From Desulfonatronum sp. (GTDB lineage: Bacteria; Desulfobacterota; Desulfovibrionia; Desulfovibrionales; Desulfonatronaceae): 50,203 bases of DNA. A program made the translations under genes and the position numbers. Every line of letters begins with the position of its first letter. Position 1 is the stretch's first letter. The DNA is taken from NCBI GenBank assembly GCA_011049455.1, contig DSBL01000092.1:1-50203 (forward strand). The letters are read 5' to 3'. Positions 32,430 to 36,286 of this stretch are shown one piece after another. The notes below the pieces were generated by a model that saw only the letters and a list, made by a program, of their open reading frames with translations, was not told the DNA's origin and searched no databases.

Positions 32430-32436
32430 CGTTTGA

Positions 32437-32481
32437 CCGCATAAAAAAGCGCGCCCGTTTCAGGCGCGCTTTTTTATGCGG
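32437..32481. terminator. Bidirectional intrinsic terminator
   Basis: Perfect 19-bp inverted repeat (arms 32437-32455 and 32463-32481; core AAAAAAGCGCGCC) with a 7-base loop. The A-run on one side and T-run on the other make it work for both the PaaK-like gene (plus) and the HesB-like gene (minus). Confidence 0.92.
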
Positions 32482-32500: not shown

Positions 32501-32806
32501 TCAACACGATGAGCAGCTGCCGCTGCAACCGCCGCCCCCGCCCAGATTGACCTCGGAGGTCACCGAGAAGCCGTAGGGGGTCATGTCCACCTTGATGGCG
32601 CCGGCGTTGGTGATCAAATCCTTTTCCACAACAAACGTGTATCCGCTGATTTCATGGATGCTGTCGTTATCCCTCTGCTCATCCAGAGCAAGAGCCAATT
32701 TTGGCCCGCCTCAGCCGGGCGCCATGTACACCCTGATGGCCGAGGCATCCTTGCCTTCGAAATAATTGTCCAGTTGCTGTTTAGCGCTGTGCGTCAATTC
32801 AAGCAT
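32501..32806 (-). CDS. HesB/IscA-like selenoprotein with in-frame UGA (Sec32)
   Basis: Reading from ATG 32806, which has GGAGG nine bases upstream, gives 101 residues if the TGA at 32711-32713 is read as selenocysteine: ...VYMAPG-U-GGPKLALALDE... The Sec falls where IscA-type iron-sulfur carriers have their first conserved cysteine (GCSG), and the remainder keeps the A-type carrier pattern, ending in a cysteine-rich tail (Cys94, Cys98, Cys101; CSGSCSSC). HesB-like selenoproteins are a known bacterial family. Without recoding only a 65-residue piece from an internal TTG would be called. A SECIS-like hairpin follows the UGA. Single-gene unit with its own promoter and terminator. Expected role: Fe-S or metal handling in the cytoplasm. 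Confidence 0.9.
32673..32694 (-). promoter_or_regulatory. Putative bacterial SECIS element
   Basis: On the mRNA, CTCTTGCTC-UGGAU-GAGCAGAG forms eight pairs with one bulged U and a five-base apical loop starting UG, 25 bases after the UGA. A bulged U and a G in the first loop positions at this distance are the known features for SelB recognition. A smaller GCCAA-AA-TTGGC hairpin lies between the UGA and this stem. Confidence 0.72.
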
Positions 32807-32847
32807 AACAATCTAACCTCCAAGTGGATTTGTGGTGAACTGGGGAA

Positions 32848-32876
32848 TAGATAAATACGCCGATATGGTTTGTCAA
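32848..32876 (-). promoter_or_regulatory. Candidate promoter of the HesB-like selenoprotein
   Basis: Perfect -35 TTGACA (32871-32876) on the minus strand, 17-base spacer, then TATCTA (32848-32853). It would give a leader of about 35 bases before ATG 32806. Confidence 0.45.
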
Positions 32877-32919
32877 ATGATATAAATTCTCATGACGGTC
32901 CTGACAACAATCCGGCGGA

Positions 32920-35457
32920 TCAACGGCGCTTGGCGCCTTCCGGCTGGAAGGCGCGGAGGCGCAGGGCATTGCTGACCACGGAGACCGAGCTCATGGCCAT
33001 GGCCCCGCCGGCGATCATCGGGCTGAGAGTCGGTCCGCCAAAGGCGTACAGCAGTCCCGCGGCCACGGGGATGCCCAGCACGTTGTAAGCAAAGGCCCAG
33101 AACAGGTTTTGCTTGATGTTGCGCACCACGGCCCGGCTTAAGGCGAGGGCCGTGATCAAGCCCGAGAGGTTGCCGCTCATGAGCACCATGTCCCCGGATT
33201 CAACGGCCACGTCAATGCCCGTGCCCATGGCCACGCCCAAATCCGCCTGGGCCAGGGCCGGGGCGTCGTTGATGCCGTCGCCGACCATGGCCACTTTCAG
33301 CCCTTGTTCTTGCAATCCCTTGATTTCCTCGGCCTTATTCTCCGGAAGCACTTCGGCCCGCACTTCCTGGATGCCCGCCTGGGCTGCCACGGCCCTGGCG
33401 GTTTGCGTGTTGTCGCCGGTGAGCATGACCACTCGCAGGCCCAAGCGCTTCAGAGCAGCGACGACCTCGCTGGCCTCGGGCTTGATGCGGTCGGCGATGC
33501 CCAGCACTGCGGCGGGTCTGCCGTCCACGGCCATGAACAGCGCGGTCTTGCCCGAACTGGATACGTCAACGGCCTTGGCCGGTAATTGATCTGCGTCAAA
33601 ATCCGGGGCAACGCGCTGAAGAATGAATTGTACGTTGCCCAGGAGCAGGTCGTGTCCGTCCGCCCTGGCCTTGATGCCCTGGCCGGGGAGATACTCGAAG
33701 TCTTCAACGGCCAATTCGCCCAGTCCCCTTTCCTTGGCGGAGCGGACCACCGCCTTGGCCAGGGGGTGCTCGGAGCGCGATTCCGCAGCCGCGGCCAGCC
33801 GCAGCAGACTTCCGGCATCCAGGGGTTGGCCCGGCAAGGGGATGACGTCCGTGACCGCAGGCTGGCCCTGGGTCAAGGTCCCGGTCTTGTCCAGCACCAC
33901 CGCCTGGATGGAACGCGCGGTTTCCAGGGCTTCGCCGCCCTTGATGAGTATGCCGAGCTGGGCGCCGCGGCCAGTGCCGACCATGATCGCCGTGGGTGTG
34001 GCCAGGCCCATGGCGCAGGGGCAGGCAATGACCAGCACGGCGATGAAGATGCGCAGGGCAAAGGTGAAGGGCTCACTGGCGATGAAATACCAGCTCAGGC
34101 CGGCAAAAATGGCCACGCCAATCACGGCGGGCACGAAATAGAGGCTTAAGCGGTCCACCAGGCTGGCAATGGGCGCCTTGGAGCCCTGGGCTTCCTGGAC
34201 GAGCCGGATGATCCTGGCCAGGATCGTGTCCCGGCCGATGCGCTCGGCGATCATGTGGATGGAGCCGTGGGCGTTGAGGGTCCCGCCGATCAGGGCGTCT
34301 CCCTGCTTTTTGTTCACAGGCAGGCTTTCCCCGGTGAGCATGGACTCGTCCACGCTTGTTTGCCCTTGGCTGAGTCGGCCGTCAACCGGGATGCGTTCGC
34401 CGGGCCTGATCAAAAGGACGTCACGGGGACGGATCTGCTCCAGGGCGATGATCTCCTGGCGGCCTTCCCGGATACGGGTGGCTGTTTTGGGAGTCAGCGC
34501 CATCAACTGCCGGATGGCGTCCGATGTGCGCGCCTTGGAGCGGGTCTCCAGAAATTTGCCGAGCATGACCAGGGTGATGATCACCGCGGCGGATTCAAAA
34601 TAAAGATCCATGGCCCTGGCCATGGGTTCATGGTCCAGGGCGATCTCCACGAGGTTCCAGGTGCTGTAGGCAAAGGCCGCGCCCGTGCCCACGGCGATCA
34701 GCGAATCCATGTTCGGGGCCCGTTTCCAAAGATTGGGAAAGCCCCGCAAATAGAACTCGCGGCCGGCCCAAAGCACCGGCAGGGTCAACAGGAACTGGAC
34801 CAGGGAAAAGGTCAGGGGGGAGCGATGGGGGCTCAAGAAGCCGGGCATGGGCAGGCCGACCATTTCGCCCATGGAAACGATGAACAGGGGCACGGCGAAC
34901 CCCGCGGCCAGAAGCAGCTTGGAGCGCATGGCCGCAAGCCGGGCCTCCATTTCCCGGCGCTGGATCTCTGTCATGGAGCCCTGGCTGTCGTGCAGGGTGA
35001 AGGCGTCGTAGCCGGCGTCCCGCACGGCCTGGATGATGTCGTCCGGACTGACCTTTTCCGGTGCGACATGGACTTGGGCGGTTTCGGATGCCAGATTCAC
35101 GGAGGCCGATTTGACGCCATCCAAGGCCGTGATGGCGTTTTCCACCCGCCGCACGCACGCTGCGCAGGTCATGCCCTTGACGGCCAGTTCAATCTTGTCG
35201 GAGATGTTTTCAAGGATCAGGGAATATCCGGCTTGGGCCACGGCATCGGCGATATGCTCCGGCGTGATCCTTTCCGGGTCCCACTCCACGGTCATGTTTT
35301 CCGTGGCCAGATTCACAGAAACGCTGCGCACGCCATCCAGTTCGGAAACGGCGTTTTCCACCCGCCGCACGCACGCTGCGCAGGTCATGCCCTGAACAGC
35401 GAATTCGGATTTTTGCAAATTTGAGGTGCTGGAGGTGTCGGCAAAAATGTTGTTCAT
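32920..35457 (-). CDS. copA: Copper-translocating P-type ATPase
   Basis: P1B-type ATPase, 845 residues, exporting Cu(I). Two N-terminal heavy-metal domains each carry [14 protein letters not shown] (Cys26/29 and Cys98/101); then eight membrane helices with the ion-binding CPC in [13 protein letters not shown]; the actuator TGES in MLTGESLPV; the phosphorylation site DKTGTLTQG; the SEHPLAKAV motif of the nucleotide domain; and the hinge [13 protein letters not shown] 35457 has AAGGA six bases upstream; longer in-frame starts run into the pyrR promoter region. The two metal domains share an exact 44-base DNA repeat. Divergent from pyrR; no copZ or regulator gene adjacent. Confidence 0.95.
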
Positions 35458-35671
35458 GGTCTTTCCTTGCAGTTCTGAGACGAGGTGGGTATCCTTAAAG
35501 TCATGAGGGATTGTTTGGTCCTCCGGATTTGAATATGCAGGATACCTGTTTTTAGCATTCCTGTGAATACCAACGGCTTGACCGGGGTTTGTCCCGCTTT
35601 TTGATTGTGTCGCTTGGCGATGTCGCATTCCGTCATCACGGGCGGCTGGGCCAAAACACGGCAGGCCGTGC

Positions 35672-35694
35672 CCAAGGGAGCACCCCTGGTTTTT
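35672..35694 (+). terminator. Terminator-like hairpin in the pyrR leader
   Basis: CCAAGGG-AGCA-CCCCTGG followed directly by TTTTT, ending 16 bases before the pyrR ATG. One A-C mismatch in a 7-bp stem makes it weak. It could be a leader attenuator; no PyrR-binding-loop consensus was recognised. Confidence 0.35.
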
Positions 35695-35710
35695 CTGATC
35701 AGACGCATGG

Positions 35711-36286
35711 ATGACAAAAATGAATACACAGGCAGCGCAGATGATACCGAACAACGGCAAGGTGTTGCTCAATGACCAGGAGGTGCGCCGCGCCTTGGAG
35801 CGACTGGCCTATGAGGTGATTGAGCGTCATGGGGACGGGGCCAGACTGGCCTTGATGGGCGTGCAGCGCCGGGGCGTTGAACTGGCCAAGCGGCTCAAGG
35901 CGTTTCTTGAACAGCGGCTCAACCGGGAGATCCCCCTGGGCAGCCTGGACATCAATCTGTACCGGGACGACTGGACCCACCTGGAGAATCAGCCGCAGAT
36001 CCACAAAACCCATATTCCCTTCGAGGTTGACGGCAGCGAGATCGTCCTGGTGGACGACGTCCTGTTCACCGGACGGACAGTGCGCGCGGCCCTGGAGGCG
36101 ATTCTCGATTATGGCCGGCCCCAGCGGGTGGAATTGCTGGTTCTGGTGGACAGGGGGCACCGTGAACTGCCCATCCACGCCGACTATGTGGGCAAGAAGG
36201 TGAACACCTCTTTGTCCGAGCAGGTGGACGTATTTGTGCAGGAGCAGGATGGACGGGATTTGGTGCTGCTTAACGAACAAAGATGA
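35711..36286 (+). CDS. pyrR: PyrR: pyr regulator / uracil phosphoribosyltransferase
   Basis: 191 residues of the PyrR branch of the phosphoribosyltransferase fold: [16 protein letters not shown] near the N-terminus, DINLYRDDW, the PRPP loop [17 protein letters not shown], and [21 protein letters not shown] near the C-terminus. PyrR proteins salvage uracil to UMP and, in many bacteria, bind pyr mRNA leaders. Two starts are possible: ATG 35711 without a Shine-Dalgarno, or ATG 35720 with GGA eight bases upstream. No pyr genes follow; it is a single gene closed by a strong terminator. Confidence 0.93.

Follow-up and report, generated by a model that had tools for sequence, protein, structure and literature searches.

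A HesB/IscA-like selenoprotein gene in Desulfonatronum with a conserved SECIS hairpin and a putative role as A-type carrier

The window, that is, the whole 50,203-nt stretch of Desulfonatronum sp. DNA that was analysed, carries a hesB-like gene whose upstream neighbour encodes a CopA-like P-type ATPase (Table 1). ORF calling without Sec (translation table 11) returns from the hesB frame only a 65-AA fragment with a TTG start. The original prediction was of one 101-codon gene hidden by an in-frame UGA and beginning at a GGAGG-led ATG; its coordinates proved exact, the GGAGG is in place, and a match to the NCBIfam family NF038090 spans the UGA. With the TGA read as U, the product begins with MLELTH, contains PGUGGP and ends with GCSGSCSSC. 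The terminal TGA was also considered as a second Sec codon and ruled out: orthologues use TAA, TAG or TGA there, and the frame closes after 8 more codons.

Table 1. Features of the hesB-like locus (positions are those of the window)
Feature	Position	Strand	Remarks
hesB-like selenoprotein gene	32501..32806	-	101 codons + stop; start ATG at 32806, stop TGA 32503..32501; UGA codon 32 predicted as Sec
In-frame UGA (predicted Sec32)	32711..32713	-	aligned with Cys35 of E. coli IscA
Shine-Dalgarno GGAGG	32817..32821	-	10 nt before ATG
Bacterial SECIS apical hairpin UGCUC-UGGAU-GAGCA	32676..32690	-	loop 25 nt after UGA
Upstream element TTTGACAAA...TATNTA	32848..32877	-	promoter-like (TTGACA, 17 nt, TATCTA), between copA and hesB
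CopA-like P-type ATPase, two HMA domains	32920..35772	-	upstream neighbour; from first TTG, true start probably further in
Near-perfect inverted repeat, 43 nt, A and T tracts	32438..32480	.	-34.6 kcal/mol, z -8.1 (folded 32430-32480)

The copA gene adjoins the hesB-like gene in seven other members of the genus seen and in one other family, and this linkage appears to be mainly a genus-level association. An operon with copA was considered, and is weakened by the different neighbours found elsewhere and by the conserved promoter-like element that lies between the two genes. The TTTGACAAA and TATNTA blocks of this element are invariant in all seven aligned genus sequences, the Cys-encoding one included, and we read it as a putative promoter of the hesB-like gene itself. 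TTTGACAAA is palindromic about a single base and may therefore double as an operator and a -35 box. A strict sigma-70 scan did not call TTTGACAAA...TATNTA, and a strict terminator scan also returned nothing. Between the convergent hesB-like and AMP-binding, phenylacetate-CoA-ligase-like genes lies the 43-nt inverted repeat, a likely bidirectional terminator. Across the phylum no conserved operon partner of the hesB-like gene, Fe-S partners included, was found; only small clusters of neighbours were seen, encoding a PxxKW-type Cys-rich protein, CopA, and PfkA-like, RdgB-like and HdrB-like proteins (all but CopA named by eye). Directly downstream of the hesB-like gene, genomes of one family within the order encode a small protein rich in Cys (CEGCER...KWxxxACNFATH; loci L026, L043, L048, L052, L053, L055, L096, L098 and L104), which is a possible functional partner.

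Residues 1-96 of the product were matched across the UGA by NF038090 (IscA_HesB_Se) with 106.5 bits (E 7e-31), which exceeds the curated cut-off of 85 bits and gives membership on score. The match is full length and the UGA falls in the family's Sec/Cys column, the first metal-ligand position, where 69 UGA and 34 Cys segments were aligned; only ordinary divergence sets the protein apart. It is the sole NF038090 match in the window genome, whereas several relatives have both Sec and Cys copies. The model for HesB-like selenoproteins, TIGR01911, gave 31 bits, under its curated cut-off of 66.35, and on this score NCBIfam places the gene in the sister subfamily NF038090. Despite the lower score, the protein shares with HesB-like selenoproteins the UxGP motif (PMC13188914), here UGGP, as well as the fold family and anaerobic, Sec-decoding hosts (TIGR01911, PMC1794560, PMC13188914). 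Such proteins were reported in Desulfovibrio in 2006 and listed for D. vulgaris, D. desulfuricans, Geobacter sulfurreducens and others (PMC1794560). Judged from its sequence, the hesB-like gene is a further member of this already described family, of which, in agreement with what had been predicted, the literature knows the existence and not the function (PMC1794560, PMC13188914). What the analysis adds to the known family is comparative: strong SECIS covariation, the near-absence of canonical carriers alongside the gene and repeated Sec/Cys twins.

NF038090 was matched in 59 of 61 relatives (54 above cut-off) and in 165 of the 297 sampled genomes of the phylum (125 above cut-off), and most of these matches carry one in-frame TGA. 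The fetched loci yielded 107 homologues, 80 of them with UGA, which do not amount to 107 independent cases since some loci overlap or share a genome; after removal of duplicates 103 segments remained, 69 with UGA and 34 with Cys. In an alignment of 80 homologues, C94 and C101 never vary, and conservation reaches 90% or more at C98 and in the Sec/Cys column. The window genome (2.87 Mb, 164 contigs, 95% complete) has the full Sec-decoding set of selA, selB, selC and selD, with SelA at 609.1 bits, SelB at 392.8 bits, a tRNA-Sec with UCA anticodon at 82.4 bits and SelD at 335 bits. SelD has its own in-frame TGA, in an AGUASK motif, and is thus itself a UGA-containing selenoprotein (G000:C58:4522-5442, locus L018). 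SelA was present in 269 of the 297 phylum genomes. The two findings on which the original prediction was staked, homologues that cross the UGA and the presence of selB and selC, are therefore both in hand, the former with Sec or Cys in the same column and the latter accompanied by SelA and SelD.

Downstream of the UGA we found a hairpin that fits the published bSECIS model, which asks for a loop of 3-9 nt, a stem of 4-16 bp, a G in the first two loop positions, a distance of 16-37 nt from the UGA and an MFE of at most -7.5 (PMC13188914). Its loop UGGAU is 5 nt long, the stem has 5-6 bp and the distance is 25 nt; the energy is borderline, at -6.9 kcal/mol when five pairs are counted and -7.5 once a U-G closure is added. 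Single-sequence folding of the UGA region was uninformative (z -1.3), and the MFE of a 19-nt segment favours another hairpin, CUCUG-GAUGAG-CAGAG, whereas in a 20-nt context the conserved stem is the more stable (-6.9/-7.5 vs. -5.7 for the alternative). The choice between these two predicted hairpins is decided only by the comparison of homologues. All five stem pairs form in 67 of 69 UGA copies vs. none of 34 Cys copies. This contrast is not just a matter of protein conservation, because it holds among copies sharing the same ALDE peptide, where the stem is intact in 64/65 UGA vs. 0/14 Cys copies. The Ala codon in the stem is GCT throughout the UGA copies (67/67); in Cys copies, 19 of 27 Ala codons are GCC. 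In addition, the synonymous wobble base of the Leu codon just before it follows the residue whose codon lies opposite in the stem (Gln-T 26/27, Pro-G 29/29, Ser-G 11/11, Arg-C 1/1). Overall, 99.4% of the stem cells are paired and the covariation score is 0.269, reached by none of 500 shuffles and by no slid control (0.055 at most); the sequences are related, so that shuffle counts and p-values overstate independence, but the covariation pattern recurs across families. Several Cys copies (e.g., L061, L062, L050 and L025) keep four of the five pairs, the stem being broken by synonymous changes, as expected of putatively decaying SECIS elements.

Conservation and covariation of the hairpin therefore settle selenocysteine as far as sequence can, and we regard it as virtually certain that UGA codon 32 is read as Sec. 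A pseudogene or a sequencing error is ruled out by the conservation and the SECIS element. An ordinary stop of either origin, or synthesis of only the downstream TTG-started ORF, would agree with the 65-AA product of table 11, yet most relatives have their UGA at this very codon, the hairpin covaries and the Sec machinery is complete, which leaves this reading a negligible probability. Readthrough of another kind, by misreading as Trp or Cys, has nothing specific in its favour and is scarcely more credible: homologues have Cys and not Trp at the site, the hairpin is kept in UGA copies only, and the genome encodes SelA, SelB, tRNA-Sec and a SelD with a UGA of its own.

With the Sec/Cys site masked, the tree requires 12 changes between the two forms, at least six of them forced by well-supported branches, although the columns are few and many forks stay unresolved. 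Sec and Cys forms thus seem to have switched repeatedly, at least six times; in several families, Cys copies are nested within Sec groups. For the HesB-like family, two Sec-to-Cys events were counted in the 2006 survey (PMC1794560), and the number of switches, in either direction, appears larger than that. One apparent switch lies within the genus: the copA-adjacent orthologue L093 (G002:C11, 5001-5327) has Cys for Sec and has lost the SECIS stem. A separate Cys paralogue was found in five other genus members (L105, L107-L110) and not in the window genome at its 95% completeness. Sec and Cys copies occur together in many genomes, often in tandem. Tandem paralogues at L030, L031, L036, L037, L061, L062, L069 and L102 belong to several families and apparently have more than one origin. 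At L056 (G047:C16, 1041-2250) three family copies stand in a row, one with UGA and a normal SECIS stem, one with UGA, few Cys in the tail and a divergent stem (GGCUC/GAGGC), and one in which Lys occupies the Sec/Cys site.

As for the fold, the prediction by AlphaFold2 with the family alignment has the topology of an A-type carrier (pLDDT 85.5) and superimposes on IscA (1s98) with Z 11.7 and rmsd 2.4 over 87 residues, on SufA (2d2a) with Z 10.8 and on the IscA-like DsrR of Allochromatium vinosum (2k4z) with Z 10.3, at 17% sequence identity to the latter. Against the PDB, phmmer with the protein alone found no match; the family profile was required, and it matched 1nwb (E 2e-13) and IscA 1s98 (E 2e-9). 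This profile aligns Sec32 with Cys35 and so bears out the claim that Sec replaces the first metal-binding Cys. The likeness to IscA, SufA and ErpA (PF01521) thus comprises the predicted fold, the position of the first metal-binding residue and a Cys-containing C-terminus. The proposed assignment to the A-type Fe-S carriers stands only as regards fold and remote homology: the protein alone scores 14.4 bits with Pfam Fe-S_biosyn (PF01521), under the gathering score of 26.3; 63 of 80 relatives match that model at E <= 0.001. The Cys-rich C-terminus is kept as predicted, whereas the classical CxC is absent. In place of the canonical three-Cys set (Cys35 and a C-terminal CxC), the protein has Sec32 and C94-x3-C98-x2-C101, and, unlike IscA, SufA and ErpA, its gene adjoins no isc or suf genes. 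Tail residues 91-101 are disordered in the model (pLDDT < 50), which therefore gives no basis for placing a metal site.

In 31 genomes from the order, that of the window among them, no canonical PF01521 carrier above cut-off was found, and a strong match (>= 54 bits) occurs in only 13 of the 297 phylum genomes. Of these 13, just one, G146, encodes an NF038090 protein above cut-off as well (Fisher p 0.009, with relatedness ignored). Given this absence in the window genome and the rarity of canonical carriers in the phylum, the hesB-like protein appears to be the sole A-type protein of the cell, and, where present, a protein of this family is usually the only apparent A-type protein of its genome. 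Neither an NF038090 member above cut-off nor a canonical carrier was detected in 160 of the 297 genomes; an A-type carrier is therefore not universally needed, and the role of the hesB-like protein may be dispensable. NifU_N and SufBD proteins are present in the window genome.

We propose that SelB and tRNA-Sec(UCA) would decode the UGA as Sec with the hairpin as their guide, and that the product would adopt the A-type carrier fold with Sec32 at the place of IscA's first metal-binding Cys and with Cys94, Cys98 and Cys101 supplied by the flexible tail. Most likely, the Sec selenolate and the tail thiolates would hold an Fe-S cluster or iron, received from NifU/IscU-type and SufB-type machinery for delivery, so that the selenoprotein would stand in for the missing IscA, SufA or ErpA. 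The reading frame, its conservation, the SECIS element and the Sec machinery are read from the sequence and the fold is predicted; the ligand set, the cargo and the delivery role we infer. As a whole, Sec insertion and carrier role together and with a compromise struck between them, this explanation seems probable to us, while for the Fe-S or iron carrier role by itself the balance tips only slightly in favour.

The same fold could also serve redox chemistry or bind soft metals (Cu, Hg, As) or Se/S species rather than deliver Fe-S, in which case Sec32 and the tail Cys would form a redox or chelating centre that may be tied to the neighbouring copper exporter. The CopA gene directly upstream in genus members and one other family, the loss of the CxC motif and the expectation of a 2026 review that most uncharacterised selenoproteins have redox roles (PMC13188914) speak for it; yet the CopA linkage is lineage-restricted, with unrelated neighbours in other families, the conserved promoter-like element separates the two genes, a CxxU or UxxC motif is lacking, and both the fold and the remote homologues indicate IscA/SufA. 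We consider such a role possible but rather unlikely.

If the Fe-S carrier reading is right, deletion of the gene or a Sec-to-Cys change should visibly affect Fe-S enzymes, since these genomes appear to be without a canonical carrier. The Sec/Cys twin genes and the Cys orthologue L093 offer natural experiments on the benefit of Sec. Standard ORF calling shortens the gene to 65 residues. HesB-like selenoproteins have been recognised from sequence for some twenty years. It is a doubtful, though attractive, extension that in most phylum members encoding it the selenoprotein is the sole A-type carrier, in place of IscA/SufA/ErpA and with a selenium-ligated cluster or iron site, and that the Cys twins, which would have evolved recurrently, step in under selenium shortage. 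Were the selenoprotein indeed the only carrier, Fe-S maturation in these organisms would depend on selenium.
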